Origin: Pseudomonas argentinensis
GTDB lineage: Bacteria; Pseudomonadota; Gammaproteobacteria; Pseudomonadales; Pseudomonadaceae
Direction of reading: 5' to 3'
Length of the DNA stretch: 64,000 nt
Assembly: GCF_001839655.2 (NCBI RefSeq)
Contig: NZ_CP056087.1
Span: 4,278,001-4,342,000, forward strand
Within the stretch, counting starts at the first letter, position 1, and the number at the start of each line of letters is the position of its first letter. Below are positions 45,405-51,710 of the stretch, piece by piece. Under the pieces are notes generated by a model. It was not told where the DNA came from. It made no database searches and was given only the letters and a program-made list of their open reading frames with translations. Both the position numbers and the translations under genes were made by a program.

Positions 45405-46217
45405 TCACACCACGCTGGCGCGCTGCAGGTCGCTGCGGTGGCCAACGCCGGCCGCTTGCAGGCGCTGCACCAGGTCCTCACGGGCGGCCCGGCCACCGGC
45501 ACGCACGTAGTCCAGCTCGCTGGTGGTGATCAGCACCACGGGAATCAGGCTGACCGGCGACAGCGGCATGTCGTCCAGGCGCATCGGGAAGTCCGCTGGG
45601 GGGCTGCCGAGCAGTACGCCGACGGTATCGTCGTCGCTGACGAAGTGCGCGGTCAGTTGCTCGCCGATATGCTGCGACTGGCTCACGCCGGGCAGCTCCA
45701 GGGACAGCACGCCGTGCTGCTCGATCTGCTCGGCGATGCCGCCGGCGTCCGCGACCGTGCCGGCCACATGGCTCAGCAGCTCGAAGGCCCAGCTGTACTT
45801 GAGCGGGTCGACTTCGCCCGGCGTGCCCCGGGCATGCTCGGGAATATCGGCGGTTTCCAGGAACAGCTCCATCTCGAAGCCGTTACCCATGCCCTCCACG
45901 TCGTCGAAGGGATCGGACAGGCCTTCGGTGGCCAGGAGGATGGACTCGCCACGGCGCACCACGCGGTAGGCCTGGCGAGTCGACGGCCACTGCGGGCCGC
46001 CGGTGAAGCTGGGGCTGATCAGGTAGCCCAGCACGTCCTGCTCGACGGCGCCGACACCCTGCCAGTGGCGATCCAGGCAGTCGGCGCTGGCCTCGCGGGC
46101 GGCCAGATTGGCCGCTTCGGCGTCTTTTTCAGATGTTTGCCGAGCGGGCACCGCGGGCAATTCAGGCTCGGCGGAAGGTTTGGACGACAGGCCGAACAAT
46201 TTGCGGAAAAAACTCAT
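45405..46217 (-). CDS. Hypothetical protein, SUFU-like
   Basis: A 270-residue soluble protein without signal peptide. Stretches such as SILLATEGLSDPFDD, GFEMELFLETADIPEH, SWAFELLSHVA and SLIPVVLITTSELDYVRAGG resemble suppressor-of-fused (SUFU)-type domains, which in bacteria include toxin-immunity proteins. This match is from memory of the fold's sequence style and is tentative. The ATG at 46217 has AAGGA 6 nt upstream. No toxin gene is seen nearby. It stands alone between the AraC gene and the aro operon. Confidence 0.75.
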   Translation of the reverse strand: MSFFRKLFGLSSKPSAEPELPAVPARQTSEKDAEAANLAAREASADCLDRHWQGVGAVEQDVLGYLISPSFTGGPQWPSTRQAYRVVRRGESILLATEGLSDPFDDVEGMGNGFEMELFLETADIPEHARGTPGEVDPLKYSWAFELLSHVAGTVADAGGIAEQIEQHGVLSLELPGVSQSQHIGEQLTAHFVSDDDTVGVLLGSPPADFPMRLDDMPLSPVSLIPVVLITTSELDYVRAGGRAAREDLVQRLQAAGVGHRSDLQRASVV

Positions 46218-46397: not shown

Positions 46398-46844
46398 TCA
46401 CGCCTGTTCGCCACGGGCCGCCGTCACCGCCGTGCGCAAGCCCAGCAGGTAGCTGTCCACACCGAAGCCGCTGATCTGCCCACGCACCACCTCGGCGAAT
46501 ACCGAGTGGTGGCGGAAGGCTTCGCGGGCGTGGATGTTGGACATGTGGATTTCCACCACCGGCACGCTGAGGATCGCCAGCGCGTCGCGGATGCCGTAGC
46601 TGTAGTGGGTCCAGGCGCCGGCGTTGATCAGCACCGCATCCGTGCCCTCCAGAAAGGCCTGGTGGATGCGTTCGCACATGGCGCCTTCGTAGTTGCTCTG
46701 GAAGCTCTCGATTTGCACACCGAGGGATGCGGCCAGCTCGTCCAGGCGCGCGTCGATTTCGTCCAGGGTGATGGTGCCGTACTGCAGCGGGTCGCGCTTG
46801 CCGAACAGGTTGTGGTTGATGCCGTGCAGCATGAGTACGTTCAT
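46398..46844 (-). CDS. aroQ: Type II 3-dehydroquinate dehydratase
   Basis: A 148-residue small dehydratase converting 3-dehydroquinate to 3-dehydroshikimate. Catalytic features are intact: R17 and Y22 in GKRDPLQYG, N74 and H80 in LINAGAWTHYS, H100 in EIHMSN and a following arginine. The N-terminal LHGINHNLFG differs from the common NGPNLNLLG of housekeeping AroQ, suggesting a catabolic paralogue. It is last of the six-gene operon, 11 bp after the AroE-like gene. Together they suggest quinate/shikimate-type substrates. Confidence 0.92.
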   Translation of the reverse strand: MNVLMLHGINHNLFGKRDPLQYGTITLDEIDARLDELAASLGVQIESFQSNYEGAMCERIHQAFLEGTDAVLINAGAWTHYSYGIRDALAILSVPVVEIHMSNIHAREAFRHHSVFAEVVRGQISGFGVDSYLLGLRTAVTAARGEQA

Positions 46845-46855
46845 CGTCTGCTCCC

Positions 46856-47674
46856 TTACACCAGCGGCACGCTGAGTCGTTTGATTACCGGCCCGGTTTG
46901 CGGACGCACGCCGCGCCACCACTCGAAGGCTTCGGCAGCCTGCTCGACGAGCATGCCGACGCCGTCCGCCAGGCTGCTTACGCCGGCCTTCTTGGCCACC
47001 TGCAGAAAGGGCGTCAGCCCCTTGCCGTAGGCCAGCTCATAGGCCAGCGCCGCATTGGCGAACACCGCTTCCGGCACCGGTGGCAGCTCGCCGGTGAGGC
47101 TGGCCGAGGTGGCGTTGATGACCAGGTCGAACGACTGCCCGGCCAGGTCTTCATAGGTGCTGAGCGACAGGCGCGGATCATTCACTTCGCTTTCCAGCAC
47201 CCGCGCCTTGGCCATGTCGCGGTTGGCCAGTACCAGGCGCGCCGGGCCGGCTCCCAGGAACGGCAGCAAGGCACCGCGCACCGCACCGCCGGCGCCGAGC
47301 AGCAGAACACGGCGGCCTGCCAGCGGCTGGCCAAGATTGTGCTCGATATCACGCAGCAGCCCGACGCCATCGAAGTTTTCGGCCAGCACCGCATCGCCCT
47401 CGAACTTGAAGGCGTTGGCGGCCCGCGCCAGGCGTGCCCGCTCGCTGGGCTGGGTGGCCAGCCTGAAGGCCTGCAGCTTGAACGGCGCGGTGATGTTCAT
47501 GCCCAGCCCGCCCTTGGCCTGGAAACGCGCCACGTCACCGGCGAAGTCGCTGGTCGAACCTTCGATGGCGGTGTACTCGATCTGCTGCCCGCAACTCTCC
47601 GCGAACAGTCCGTGAATCAGCGGCGACTTGGTGTGCCCGATGGGGTTGCCGATCACGGCGTATTGGTCTGTCAT
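46856..47674 (-). CDS. Shikimate/quinate dehydrogenase family protein (AroE-like)
   Basis: A 272-residue NAD(P)-dependent dehydrogenase. Substrate-site motifs are VIGNPIGHTKSPLIH, MNITAPFK with catalytic K66, and AENFDGVG with D102 (housekeeping AroE has NTDG). The Rossmann motif is LLLGAGGAVRGAL. The substituted residues and operon context suggest a paralogue specialised for quinate, shikimate or an analogue. The start overlaps the CaiB stop (ATGA 47671-47674). Confidence 0.9.
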   Translation of the reverse strand: MTDQYAVIGNPIGHTKSPLIHGLFAESCGQQIEYTAIEGSTSDFAGDVARFQAKGGLGMNITAPFKLQAFRLATQPSERARLARAANAFKFEGDAVLAENFDGVGLLRDIEHNLGQPLAGRRVLLLGAGGAVRGALLPFLGAGPARLVLANRDMAKARVLESEVNDPRLSLSTYEDLAGQSFDLVINATSASLTGELPPVPEAVFANAALAYELAYGKGLTPFLQVAKKAGVSSLADGVGMLVEQAAEAFEWWRGVRPQTGPVIKRLSVPLV

Positions 47675-48903
47675 GCGCTTTCTCCATGGCTGTACAGCAC
47701 GCCGTCGGCCTGCAGCTGGGTGATTTCCTCGAGGCTGAAGCCGAGCTGCGCGGCGACTTCGGCGTTGTGTTCACCCAAGTCCGGTGCGACGCGGGTGACC
47801 GTGGTATCGCAGTCGGAAAAACGGAACGGTAGGTTGGGCAATTTCAGGGTGCCGTAGCGCGGGTGCTGCTGCCCCATGATCATGCCGCGCGCCTGGATCT
47901 GCGGGTCGTTGACCACCTCGTCGATGCGCTGCACCTTGGCGCTCGGCACATCCACCTCATCGAGCAGCGACAGCAGGCGGGCCACCGGGTTGGCGGCCAC
48001 CCAGCGGCGCACGATGGCGAGAATTTCTTCGCGGTGCGCGTTGCGGCCGCCGGGAGTATGGAAACGCGTGTCGCTGCTGAACCCGGCCACGCCGGCATCG
48101 GCTTCCACCAGGGCGGCGAAGCGCTTCCAGGAATCGTCGACCTGGGCGGCGATCACCAGGTCGCCGTCGGCGGCGCGGAATACGCCGTAGAGCGTCGAGG
48201 TCGGCATGTCATGGCCGGTCTGCTGCGGCAGGATCTGCCCGCCGGACAGGGTGTAGCACTGCACCGCGTACTCGTGCATCGACACCAGGGTGTCGTAGAG
48301 CGCCATGTCGATGTGCTGCCCCTTGCCACTGCTCACCCGGCCCAGCAGGGCGGCGTTGATGGCCGCCACCGCGTGAATGCCGGTGTACATGTCGCCCAGG
48401 GAAATGCGCAGCAGCGGCGGCGCCTCACCAGGCGTGCCGACCATCTGCATGATGCCGCTCTTGGCCTCGGCGATCAGCCCGAAACCGGCGCGGTGCGCAT
48501 CCGGGCCGGTGTGGCCGTAAGCGGAAATCGAGCAATACACCAGCTTCGGGTTGCGCGCGGCGAGGTCCTTGTAGCCCAGGCCGAGCTTGTCCAGCGCGCC
48601 GGGGCGGTAGTTCTCGATGAACACGTCGGCGCTGTCGCAGAGTTTCTGCATGAAGGCTTTGCCGCGCGGGTCCTTCATGTTCACGCTGACACCCTGCTTG
48701 CCCATGTTGAGCTGCAGGAAGTAGCCGCTCTGCTGGTCATCGAGGACGAAGGCATGCTGGCGGCCGGCGTCGCCGCTGCCGGGCCGCTCGACCTTGATCA
48801 CCTCGGCGCCCAGGGCCGCCAGGCAGCGGCCCACATAGGGGCCGGCGAGAAAATGGCTGTAATCGATGACACGGATGCCTTTGAGCGGCAATGGCTGGCT
48901 CAT
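47671..48903 (-). CDS. CaiB/BaiF family (class III) CoA-transferase
   Basis: A 410-residue class III CoA-transferase, which moves CoA between carboxylic acids through an aspartyl anhydride. Marks are RVIDYSHFLAGPYVGRCLAA at the start, LGAEVIKVERPGSGDAGR, the loop FIENYRPGALDKLGLGY, and GDMYTGIHAVAAINAALLGR. DMALYDTLVSMH is conserved. It overlaps both neighbours by four bases. The acid it activates is unknown; with a MaoC hydratase next to it, an unsaturated or hydroxy acyl-CoA is likely. Confidence 0.92.
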   Translation of the reverse strand: MSQPLPLKGIRVIDYSHFLAGPYVGRCLAALGAEVIKVERPGSGDAGRQHAFVLDDQQSGYFLQLNMGKQGVSVNMKDPRGKAFMQKLCDSADVFIENYRPGALDKLGLGYKDLAARNPKLVYCSISAYGHTGPDAHRAGFGLIAEAKSGIMQMVGTPGEAPPLLRISLGDMYTGIHAVAAINAALLGRVSSGKGQHIDMALYDTLVSMHEYAVQCYTLSGGQILPQQTGHDMPTSTLYGVFRAADGDLVIAAQVDDSWKRFAALVEADAGVAGFSSDTRFHTPGGRNAHREEILAIVRRWVAANPVARLLSLLDEVDVPSAKVQRIDEVVNDPQIQARGMIMGQQHPRYGTLKLPNLPFRFSDCDTTVTRVAPDLGEHNAEVAAQLGFSLEEITQLQADGVLYSHGESA

Positions 48904-49358
48904 AGGCTGGCCTCCCGGCGCGGCACCATCAGGCGATGTTCACCGCGCTGCACCACCTCGCCCTTGTGGTTGATCAAGTCCGACGGCAGCACCACGATGC
49001 CCCAGCCCGGCTTGCTCTTGCTGGCGCGCATGGCGCCGACGCGCATCTTCACGTGCAGCACGTCGCCGACGCGGATGGGCTGCAGAAAATCCCAGGTCCA
49101 GCCCAGCGACATGCCGGGCAGGAAGCGGTAGTCGCACTGGGTCTTCAGGCCGTCGGCGATGGACAGCCCCATCAGCCCGTGGGCGACCAGGCCGCCAAAA
49201 TGGCTGGCCTTGGCGTATTCCTCATCGACGTGCACCGGCGTGTGGTCGCCGGTCAGGTCGGCGTACGCGAGGATGCGTTCCTTGGTCATGGTGTAACTGG
49301 GGGTAATGGCTTCGTCGCCCTCGCGGGCATCATCCCAGTATTTCTCGACGATGCTCAT
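48900..49358 (-). CDS. MaoC-family (R)-hydratase
   Basis: A 152-residue hot-dog-fold hydratase/dehydratase. The catalytic motif region is YADLTGDHTPVHVDEEYAKA with Asp and His, followed by FGGLVAHGLMGLSIADGL. It would hydrate or dehydrate an acyl-CoA made by the adjacent CoA-transferase. It is of usual length for a single-domain MaoC. The ATG at 49358 overlaps the VOC stop, and its own stop overlaps the CaiB start, both in ATGA form; upstream open frame is non-coding here. Confidence 0.92.
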   Translation of the reverse strand: MSIVEKYWDDAREGDEAITPSYTMTKERILAYADLTGDHTPVHVDEEYAKASHFGGLVAHGLMGLSIADGLKTQCDYRFLPGMSLGWTWDFLQPIRVGDVLHVKMRVGAMRASKSKPGWGIVVLPSDLINHKGEVVQRGEHRLMVPRREASL

Positions 49359-49756
49359 GCCGCCCCCTCCACCCGTGCATTCACCGCCAGGGCTTCGGCC
49401 ACCGCACTGGCCGGCGACGCCTGGATGAATTCCACGGCCAGGCCATCGGGCAGGCGCAGCCAGTTGCGACCCTGGGTCATCTCGGCCACGCCCTCGAAAC
49501 GTAGCGCGGTGGCCAGCGCGGCCTCCATGTCCTCGCACATCATGCCCAGGTGGCCCATGCGCCCTTCCGGGCCGGCAAAGCCGGGCTGGCTGATGAACTG
49601 CATGCCGCCGAGGGTCCAGTACTGGGTCGGCTCTTCGAGGGTGCCGTGCACCTCGCGCATGGTCATGCCGAACACGTCGTGGAAGAACTTGATGTACCAG
49701 TGGATATCACTGACCGGGAAGGCCACGTGCTCCAGGTAGGCTTTGGGAATACTCAT
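49355..49756 (-). CDS. VOC-fold (glyoxalase/dioxygenase superfamily) protein
   Basis: A 133-residue single VOC protein. YLEHVAFPVSDIHWYIKFFH begins the first beta-alpha-beta-beta-beta unit, and MGHLGMMCEDMEAALATAL the second, ending DGLAVEFIQ. Possible metal ligands are H10 of the first module, H near GHLG and E in VEFIQ. Family members are epimerases, lyases or dioxygenases. A methylmalonyl-CoA-epimerase-like or isomerase role would fit the CoA context but is inference. Overlaps both neighbours by four bases. Confidence 0.88.
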   Translation of the reverse strand: MSIPKAYLEHVAFPVSDIHWYIKFFHDVFGMTMREVHGTLEEPTQYWTLGGMQFISQPGFAGPEGRMGHLGMMCEDMEAALATALRFEGVAEMTQGRNWLRLPDGLAVEFIQASPASAVAEALAVNARVEGAA

Positions 49757-50703
49757 CGCTTGGTTTCCTCTTGTTGTTGATCGCCCATGGCGCGTTCGAT
49801 GCCCTTGACGCACGCCACCAGCGTGGCATTGACGGGCGTGGCGATCCCGTAACGCTGGCCGAGCCGCACCACGGCGCCGTTGATGAAATCGATTTCGGTG
49901 ACCGAGCCCTTTTCCAGGCTCTGCAGCATGGACGTCTTGAACGAGGCCGGCAGCCCTTCGCAGGCCAGGTTCCAGGCCTGCTCCGGTTCGGTGAGGCTGA
50001 GGGGCACGCCCGCCGCCTGTGCCACGGCGATGGCTTCAGCCACCGCGGCCAGGGCGGTTTCGCGCAGCAACGGCTCGCTATAGAGCTGGCCGTAGGTGAG
50101 CATGGTGATGCCGGTCAGCGCGCCGGTGGAGACGTTGACCAGCAGCTTGTCCCACATGGTGCCAAGGATGTTTTCGCTGACCCTGGTGTCCAGGCCGGCG
50201 CAGCGGAACACCTCGGCGATATGGCTGACGCGCGCACTGACCTGGCCATCGAGCTCGCCGATAAAGGTCTGCTTGCTCTCCACGCCGCAGCGGATGCGCC
50301 CCGGCGCCAGCAGCACACCGCCCACGTAGGTCTTGCCGGCGATGACCTTGTCGCGGCCGACCGCCTCGGCGAGCAGGTCTTCGTGGCCCAGGCCATTCTG
50401 CAGCGACAGCACCACGGTCCGTGGTCCGACCAGCGCGCCGGCGTCGGCGATGGCTTCGCGGGTGGCGAACGACTTGACCAGCACGACAAGCAGGTCGACG
50501 GCACCGACCTCTTCGGCACGCGAGGTGGCATTGATACGCACGCTGCGCTCGACGTCCTCTTCGATCACCGTCAGGTCGCTCTGTCTGATGGCGTCTATGT
50601 GCGCGCCGGCGCGGTTGAGCAGCCAGGTTTCATGGCCTGCCTCGCTCAGCGCGGCGCCAAAGGTGCTGCCCAACGCACCGGCTCCGAGGATGCAAATTTT
50701 CAA
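49753..50703 (-). CDS. Ketopantoate reductase-like dehydrogenase (PanE/ApbA family)
   Basis: A 316-residue NADPH-dependent 2-oxoacid reductase-family protein. The N-terminal Rossmann motif is CILGAGALGSTFGAAL, and the C-terminal helical domain has TMWDKLLVNVSTGALTG and EIDFINGAVVRLGQRYG. The conserved Asn of the NPLTAL motif is replaced by Gly (STGALTG), so it may not act on ketopantoate. The start is a TTG at 50703 with AGGAG 9 nt upstream, inside a hairpin-capable leader. First gene of the operon, divergent from LysR. Confidence 0.88.
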   Translation of the reverse strand: MKICILGAGALGSTFGAALSEAGHETWLLNRAGAHIDAIRQSDLTVIEEDVERSVRINATSRAEEVGAVDLLVVLVKSFATREAIADAGALVGPRTVVLSLQNGLGHEDLLAEAVGRDKVIAGKTYVGGVLLAPGRIRCGVESKQTFIGELDGQVSARVSHIAEVFRCAGLDTRVSENILGTMWDKLLVNVSTGALTGITMLTYGQLYSEPLLRETALAAVAEAIAVAQAAGVPLSLTEPEQAWNLACEGLPASFKTSMLQSLEKGSVTEIDFINGAVVRLGQRYGIATPVNATLVACVKGIERAMGDQQQEETKR

Positions 50704-50746: not shown

Positions 50747-50764
50747 ATTGTTGAGCTATACAAT
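50747..50764. promoter_or_regulatory. LysR-type operator in divergent promoter
   Basis: ATTGT-tgagctat-ACAAT is a perfect 5-bp inverted repeat with 8-bp spacer, containing a T-N11-A pattern, in the 92-bp space between the panE-like gene and the divergent LysR start. This is the classic placement for a LysR activator of the adjacent operon. Confidence 0.55.
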
Positions 50765-50795
50765 GAAACCAATAGCTCCATCAGAAAATCTAATA

Positions 50796-51710
50796 ATGAC
50801 CAAGATCGATGCTTTGCCAGAACCCAAGCTGCTGCACCTGTTCGACGTGCTCTACGACACCCGCAGCGTGACTCGAGCGGCCGAGCAGCTGGGCCAGAGC
50901 CAGCCGACCATCAGTCTGTGGCTCGGCAAGCTGCGCGAGCAACTGGGCGACCCGCTGTTCGTGCGCACCCCCACCGGCATGGCGCCCACGCCCCGGGCGG
51001 AAGCGCTGATCACCCCATGCCGCGAGGTACTGGAATCGCTGCGCCGGCTGACCGCCTGGGAGATCGGCTTCGACCCGGCCAGCGCGCAGCGGCGCTTCCG
51101 CCTGTGCCTGAGCGACGCCAGCCATATCACCCTGCTGCCGAAGATTCTCGAACACCTGCGCAGGGAAGCGCCCGGCATCCGCCTGGAAGTGGCGCGTATC
51201 GATGGCAATACCGAGCGCGCCCTGGAAACCGGCGAGGCCGACCTGGCGGTTGGTTTCGTGCCCTGGCTGGGCGGCGGCATCTACCAGCAGGTGCTGTTTC
51301 CGCAGGATTGGGTCTGCCTCGCCAGCCCAGGCCACCCGCGCATCGGGGGTGCGCTACAGCTCGATGAATATGTGCGCGAAGGCCATGTGTTCGTGAGTGC
51401 CGGCACCGGCCAGAAACTGCTGGAAGCCGCCCTGGCGCGCAACGCCATCGAGCGGCAGATCGTCCTGGAGCTACCGGGCTTCCTCGGCCTCGGCGCCGTG
51501 GTGGGCAGCACCGACCTGATCGCCACCCTGCCTCGGCATATCGGCGAAACGCTAGCCGGCGCCCACGGCCTGAGGGTGCACGCCTGCCCTTTCCCGATCG
51601 ACACTTTTCTGGTCAAACAGCACTGGCACGCCCGCTACCACCAGGACCCCGGCAACCGCTGGCTGCGCATGACCCTCTCGACACTGTTTCAAGGAGCCGA
51701 GCCACGGTGA
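50796..51710 (+). CDS. LysR-family transcriptional regulator
   Basis: A 304-residue LysR protein. HTH segment SVTRAAEQLGQSQPTISLWL is followed by RTPTGMAPTPRAEALI, wording typical of the NahR/NodD/PcaQ-like branch that binds aromatic or hydroaromatic acids. The effector domain contains GEADLAVGFVPWL. I choose the ATG at 50796 (MTKIDALPEPKLLHLF); ATG codons at 50763 and an open frame to 50748 precede it but would add an atypical tail over the operator. It is likely the activator of the divergent six-gene operon. Confidence 0.9.
   Translation: MTKIDALPEPKLLHLFDVLYDTRSVTRAAEQLGQSQPTISLWLGKLREQLGDPLFVRTPTGMAPTPRAEALITPCREVLESLRRLTAWEIGFDPASAQRRFRLCLSDASHITLLPKILEHLRREAPGIRLEVARIDGNTERALETGEADLAVGFVPWLGGGIYQQVLFPQDWVCLASPGHPRIGGALQLDEYVREGHVFVSAGTGQKLLEAALARNAIERQIVLELPGFLGLGAVVGSTDLIATLPRHIGETLAGAHGLRVHACPFPIDTFLVKQHWHARYHQDPGNRWLRMTLSTLFQGAEPR

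Follow-up and report, generated by a model that had tools for sequence, protein, structure and literature searches.

A conserved operon in Pseudomonas argentinensis that combines coenzyme A-ester enzymes with shikimate-type enzymes, and its possible role in hydroaromatic acid catabolism

The 64,000-nucleotide stretch of the Pseudomonas argentinensis genome analysed here (contig NZ_CP056087.1, positions 4,278,001 to 4,342,000; hereafter the window) carries an operon of six genes on the minus strand. In order, these encode a PanE-like oxidoreductase, a VOC-fold protein, a MaoC-like hydratase/dehydratase, a CaiB/BaiF coenzyme A (CoA)-transferase, an AroE-like shikimate dehydrogenase and a type II 3-dehydroquinate dehydratase (AroQ), with a LysR-type regulator gene located divergently (Table 1). 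None of the six open reading frames contains an inner stop. The PanE/VOC, VOC/MaoC, MaoC/CaiB and CaiB/AroE pairs each overlap by exactly four bases (ATGA), and AroQ follows after 11 bp. An original prediction, made from the nucleotide sequence, had described this layout and assigned the six families; the coordinates with refined starts agree with the former, and Pfam and NCBIfam with the latter. The G+C content of the operon is 0.662, that of the window 0.659.

Table 1. Operon genes, regulator and intergenic element (positions in the window).
Feature	Position	Strand	Basis or remark
PanE/ApbA-like NAD(P)-dependent oxidoreductase	49753-50703	-	First operon gene; TTG start, AGGAG upstream
VOC-fold protein	49355-49756	-	Pfam, alignment, AlphaFold2 model
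MaoC-like hydratase/dehydratase	48900-49358	-	PF01575, alignment
Family III (CaiB/BaiF) CoA-transferase	47671-48903	-	PF02515
AroE-like shikimate dehydrogenase, 3pwz class, NFDG motif	46856-47674	-	3pwz score, alignment
Type II 3-dehydroquinate dehydratase (AroQ), separate operon clade	46398-46844	-	TIGR01088, 6cv6, tree
LysR-type regulator, divergent	50796-51710 (start probable)	+	HTH_1 and LysR_substrate (Pfam)
Conserved element of the divergent intergenic region; probable LysR site	50751-50772		Alignment of 21 regions

The gene set is widespread and does not represent a chance neighbourhood. A scan with the AroE-like protein, of which the best 80 loci were kept, was combined with 43 further genome stretches to give 123 loci. 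These include six pairs with identical AroE-like DNA, leaving 117 distinct loci; as all were chosen by the AroE-like gene, the locus counts are conditional on its presence. Checking whether the genes are conserved together, as proposed with the original prediction, revealed a five-gene core: PanE, VOC, MaoC, CaiB and the AroE-like protein (each at more than 40% identity) occur together in 108 of the 117 distinct loci, on one strand in 107. The operon-type AroQ is present in 73. Among the nine loci in which the core is incomplete, three (L057, L084 and L085) are contigs shorter than 4 kb and L110 ends near the core; L109 is devoid of VOC and MaoC, L087 of VOC, and L041, L066 and L077 represent a different setting. 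The operon is accessory. Its AroE-like gene was found in 22 of 249 Pseudomonas genomes (at least 461 bits, versus at most 324 for other AroE proteins; one copy has an inner stop), in 113 of 398 genomes from the family that includes G324 (presumably Burkholderiaceae) and in 2 of 385 from the class that includes G111 (presumably Alphaproteobacteria). At the level of the phylum, the VOC profile has matches in 4 of 398 genomes, including that of the window, and a protein bank contains 1033 VOC relatives at E 1e-10. Relatives of PanE are also located on 24 plasmids.

The MaoC-like protein scores 72.2 bits against PF01575, and its Asp38 and His43 are invariant in all 17 aligned sequences. The CoA-transferase scores 385.1 bits against PF02515 and reaches none of the NCBIfam equivalog cut-offs. 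The PanE-like protein has the ApbA and ApbA_C domains of Pfam and exceeds the family cut-off of TIGR00745 (242.4 versus 141.35 bits). As predicted, it lacks the Asn of the NPLTAL motif: the position is occupied by Gly in 15 of 15 aligned sequences, which points to a family member that probably acts on a substrate other than ketopantoate. The VOC protein passes the Glyoxalase model PF00903 (23.3 bits, cut-off 20.6), and its H10, Q53, H69 and E109, invariant in 14 of 14 aligned sequences, possibly form a metal site. The metal ligands of methylmalonyl-CoA epimerase are His, Gln, His and Glu. The AlphaFold2 model of the VOC protein (predicted confidence, pLDDT, 85.4) has a fold like those of FosA and glyoxalase I, its best matches, and the human methylmalonyl-CoA epimerase reaches a template-modelling (TM) score of only about 0.28 against it.

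The AroE-like protein matches the structure 3pwz with 409.7 bits, the next Protein Data Bank chain scoring 247.2 bits, and is only 50% identical to the other AroE of the genome; it is assigned to the 3pwz class and not to the housekeeping AroE. The predicted NFDG in place of NTDG was confirmed, as the motif is invariant in 17 of 17 aligned proteins. In the alignment the protein retains the catalytic residues S16, K65, N86, D101 and Q244, which, judged by AroE structures, would be suited to a free carboxylate substrate. AroQ passes TIGR01088 (173.2 bits, cut-off 169.85) and matches 6cv6 with 247.2 bits. Its catalytic residues R14, Y19, N71, H77, D84, H97, R104 and R108 are invariant in 14 of 14 sequences. 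In the tree the operon AroQ proteins form a separate clade, which also contains an Enterococcus version, and the alignment shows the odd N-terminus noted in the original prediction to be a feature of this clade. The view that AroE-like, AroQ and PanE are specialised holds for them as clades, the catalytic residues being kept nonetheless.

Genes for the metabolism of quinate and shikimate recur around the core. Counted over the 123 loci at more than 42% identity, a Gfo/Idh dehydrogenase is found in 14 and a second AroE (AroE2) in seven, with a quinate-type AroE in one more. Transporters are represented by MFS12 (10 loci), MFS31 (seven) and a TRAP permease (five). MFS12 is 73% identical to the MFS protein encoded at the genome's own locus for QuiC, the 3-dehydroshikimate dehydratase; for both, the nearest model named by substrate is a shikimate transporter, below whose cut-off they fall (268.5 bits for the latter protein, cut-off 538). 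On a plasmid of Massilia putida, PanE, VOC, MaoC, CaiB, AroE, AroQ, AroE2 and QuiC are encoded in one array, and this QuiC is 52% identical to that of the window's genome. In L045, L082 and L120 the AroE-like gene is followed by a crotonase gene, for whose product DpgD is the nearest model (262.4 bits, cut-off 400). Just upstream of the operon in another locus (L014:160-5948) lie a second CaiB (60% identical to the operon's), a second LysR gene (53%), a crotonase and two MFS genes.

According to Pfam, no 3-dehydroshikimate dehydratase is encoded among the six genes of the window; QuiC (1303.8 bits, cut-off 1200) is encoded at 2.862-2.880 Mb of the genome, together with AroE2, AroQ2, a TetR-like gene (recognised by eye) and the MFS gene. 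The operon is an addition to this ordinary quinate/shikimate route. Near the QuiC locus, at about 2.862 Mb, the stretch L088:26-1773 encodes a Gfo/Idh-like protein (41% identical to that of L080) and a single-domain protein weakly resembling the QuiC dehydratase domain (49.8 bits). A QuiC-type dehydratase was called present upon a match of E 1e-100 or better across the N-terminal dehydratase domain; a partial match in G400 was counted as present and G648 (E 8e-46) as absent. By this criterion, the enzyme is found in all 66 operon-bearing genomes tested: in 22 of 22 Pseudomonas, versus 37 of 44 without the operon (44 of 227 such genomes, taken in listing order), and in 44 of 44 genomes of other genera, versus 3 of 8 without it. 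Fisher's test gives p = 0.049 for Pseudomonas alone and 2.4e-5 for the pooled set, the latter value being inflated by phylogeny. This co-occurrence would fit a funnel into 3-dehydroshikimate. Together, the neighbours in relatives and the constant co-residence of a QuiC-type enzyme support a tie of the operon to quinate- and shikimate-type (hydroaromatic) acids.

In other settings the enzymes are exchanged. In L066 and L077 (6111-10819 in each), the AroE-like gene comes after genes for a Gfo/Idh protein, an acyl-CoA dehydrogenase and a CoA-transferase of family I, which replace the PanE-VOC-MaoC-CaiB core; the acyl-CoA dehydrogenase would be an alternative way to an enoyl-CoA. A neighbouring gene in these two loci, a candidate for a QuiC-like dehydratase, was not used as evidence, as it matches only the C-terminal, HPPD-like half of QuiC (residues 287-547) and not the dehydratase domain. 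On plasmids of Bosea and Shinella, an operon-like MaoC (52%) occurs together with a CoA-transferase of family I that is 59-60% identical to that of L066; their arrays also encode a shikimate dehydrogenase, an aldo/keto reductase and a transporter of the ABC type. A VOC gene of the Shinella region was set aside, as it has no match to its operon counterpart at E 1e-4. Shinella also has, 5 kb from the array, a gene for an intradiol dioxygenase that shares 59% identity with the one of L082. A Bacillota version is located beside a LysR gene on a megaplasmid of Enterococcus raffinosus (L143:8944-13758), with a family I CoA-transferase (42%), a distant MaoC (25%), PanE (51%), VOC (41%) and an operon-type AroQ (60%). 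In Bradyrhizobium, G111 and G1344, the tree places a quinate-type AroQ where the operon-type would be expected; because the two swap, the substrate of the operon AroQ is suggested to be true 3-dehydroquinate. Enzyme families change while the set of functions stays, which argues for one pathway in which a CoA-transferase works with a hydratase or dehydrogenase and with hydroaromatic enzymes. CoA-ester chemistry in the operon is likewise supported, by the family assignments and by the replacement of its CoA-transferase elsewhere with one of another family. The original prediction had proposed catabolism of a quinate or shikimate conjugate through a CoA ester. The hydroaromatic link and the CoA ester are retained and the conjugate is not, as no esterase was identified in the arrays read, in which no systematic search was made.

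We consider the operon as a CoA-dependent entry for a hydroaromatic acid, that is, a cyclohexane or cyclohexene carboxylate with several hydroxyl groups, akin to quinate and shikimate, and assign to this reading a probability of about 0.42. As the AroE-like enzyme and AroQ are expected to act on free acids, the CoA steps would come before or after them, joined by the CoA-transferase. We infer the following substrate, order of steps, direction of MaoC and roles of PanE, VOC and LysR. The CoA-transferase would load the acid onto CoA drawn from the product thioester, as carnitine CaiB does, and PanE and the VOC protein might tune its oxidation state and configuration. MaoC would then dehydrate at the ring carbon adjoining the carboxyl-bearing carbon to give an enoyl thioester resembling shikimoyl-CoA, from which the CoA-transferase would free the acid. 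The AroE-like enzyme would oxidise this shikimate-type acid to 3-dehydroshikimate, AroQ would feed in any 3-dehydroquinate, and QuiC, from its own locus, would lead on to protocatechuate. The LysR protein is assumed to sense the acid or an intermediate and induce the operon. In a wider and more tentative form, a cycle of CoA-transferase and hydratase, acting on quinate-like ring acids by dehydration or isomerisation, might have been assembled more than once, in Pseudomonadota and Bacillota, from interchangeable parts: family III or family I CoA-transferases, MaoC, crotonase or acyl-CoA dehydrogenase, and PanE or perhaps an aldo/keto reductase.

Several observations weigh against this entry route. 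Given its complete-looking QuiC locus, the genome does not depend on the operon for quinate or shikimate as such. The association with QuiC is confounded by phylogeny, and among the 52 genomes of other genera only one exceeds the curated QuiC cut-off, the rest being homology matches, mostly of 790-950 bits. The operon-type AroQ is absent from 44 of the 117 distinct loci, no AroE gene is present in the Enterococcus raffinosus array, and we know of no fermenter that uses the protocatechuate route. Paraburkholderia fungorum has a 57% identical PanE in a region of CoA genes without Aro genes, and PanE alone is therefore not diagnostic. An MdtD-like MFS protein of the multidrug type is encoded by the next gene in 11 of the 123 loci. 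Intradiol dioxygenases near the core (four of 123) are closest to hydroxyquinol 1,2-dioxygenases and not to protocatechuate enzymes, and may indicate a different aromatic product. Finally, sequence does not determine in which direction MaoC works. Three of the intradiol enzymes resembling hydroxyquinol dioxygenases are related to each other (L082:14594-15502, L101:7393-8286 and L150:1987-2880) and lie directly behind AroQ in L082 and L101; their substrate may name the aromatic product.

The same enzymes could also run in the opposite direction, in a chemically usual order, as a beta-oxidation of the ring. AroQ and the AroE-like enzyme would make shikimate from 3-dehydroquinate, the CoA-transferase would convert it to shikimoyl-CoA, MaoC would hydrate this, and PanE would oxidise the new hydroxyl with assistance from VOC, so that the ring is opened without aromatisation. 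Such a route would suit a fermenter such as Enterococcus raffinosus, with its CoA-transferase, MaoC, PanE, VOC and AroQ. We regard it as rather unlikely. No gene for a ring-opening hydrolase or thiolase, nor any other ring-opening enzyme, was identified in the arrays read (no systematic search was made), a QuiC-type enzyme is present in 66 of the 66 operon-bearing genomes tested and within the Massilia array itself, and in L066 and L077 an acyl-CoA dehydrogenase, which forms enoyl-CoA, stands where the core has MaoC. For these reasons the dehydrating direction is preferred.

It is improbable that the operon breaks down an unsaturated or branched C4-C6 diacid of the itaconate or mesaconate kind, the AroE-like enzyme and AroQ having been taken over for an open-chain substrate. 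A CoA-transferase and a MaoC-type hydratase are common to both systems, and succinate-glutarate (278.7 bits) and mesaconate (241.1 bits) CoA-transferases are among the closest named models of CaiB; however, both scores fall far short of the cut-offs (750 and 700 bits), RipB/Ich reaches 38.5 of 340 bits, and Pfam identifies no CitE-type lyase among the six genes. The match to this pathway that would have spoken against the original prediction was thus not found, and the pathway itself was rejected as a candidate. The neighbours in relatives are, moreover, hydroaromatic genes, and operon-type and quinate-type AroQ interchange. Little weight is also given to the view of the operon as a further quinate/shikimate set, redundant in part, whose CoA genes would act on some unrelated acid and have only the regulator in common with the rest. 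The optional AroQ (73 of 117) and the separate QuiC locus would agree with such a set, but the presence of all five core genes in 108 of 117 loci does not, nor do the two other settings, where hydroaromatic genes are once more accompanied by a CoA-transferase, this time of another family. A role as isozymes in the synthesis of aromatic amino acids was rejected as well: another AroE (50% identical) and two more AroQ proteins (46% and 44%) are encoded elsewhere in the genome, and the operon is accessory, as seen from the 22 of 249 Pseudomonas.

The regulator gene is separated from PanE by 92 bp. Its description as a divergent LysR of the NahR/PcaQ style is correct as to the divergence, with the start moved to probably 50796; the likeness to PcaQ (46.2 bits) falls below that to BsrA (204 bits, cut-off 480) and LeuO (137.5 bits, cut-off 262), the top models. 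A LysR relative is located within 107 of the 117 distinct loci. It lies divergently, less than 400 bp from PanE, in 86 and downstream on the same strand in 19; in two it is placed otherwise, and in 10 loci no LysR relative is paired with PanE. The intergenic element TATTG-N4-CATTGTATAGC-N-CAA is conserved in 21 aligned regions from Pseudomonas and near relatives, including one record titled Pantoea. In the window it appears as TTG-N16-CAA, and some members, such as L026, have the full dyad TTGAG-N12-CTCAA. At the other end of the operon, downstream of aroQ, a protein with a SUFU domain (26.3 bits, cut-off 25) is encoded on the minus strand at 45405-46217.

Three known systems resemble parts of the operon. 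The AroE-like protein shares its sequence class and catalytic residues with 3pwz ("Shikimate dehydrogenase 3"), presumably the Ael1 of P. putida of Peek et al. 2011; an enzyme of this class has reportedly been studied as a single enzyme, whereas here it is tied to a CoA-transferase/hydratase operon. Like the carnitine CaiB/CaiD system, the operon pairs a family III CoA-transferase with a hydratase, and some of its relatives also have a crotonase, the family of CaiD; in contrast, the operon core has MaoC in place of the crotonase and is accompanied by hydroaromatic partners. Its CaiB scores 146.1 bits against the carnitine CaiB equivalog (PRK03525), below the cut-off of 413, which leaves room for a like way of working. 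With the QuiC quinate/shikimate route it has in common AroQ and an AroE-family enzyme, the shikimate-symporter-like transporters of relatives and the QuiC of the Massilia array, and it adds to that route a CoA-transferase, MaoC, PanE and VOC.

Plant matter is rich in quinate- and shikimate-type acids, and to our knowledge none of the known bacterial routes for quinate or shikimate uses CoA. A description of the operon was not found in searches of the open-licence literature. The enzyme families are known, and the operon appears to be an undescribed CoA-based branch of hydroaromatic catabolism. A review that cites Peek et al. 2011 describes the data on the newer members of the shikimate dehydrogenase family, the AroE-like one included, as limited (PMC7144000). 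In the open-licence literature, no settled pathway was found for the AroE-like class, despite its solved structure. If the proposed reading is true, this class would gain a role through a CoA module conserved among plant-associated, soil and gut bacteria, and the module would point to plant acids whose breakdown awaits description; a small set of growth and enzyme tests for it is directly feasible in laboratory Pseudomonas.

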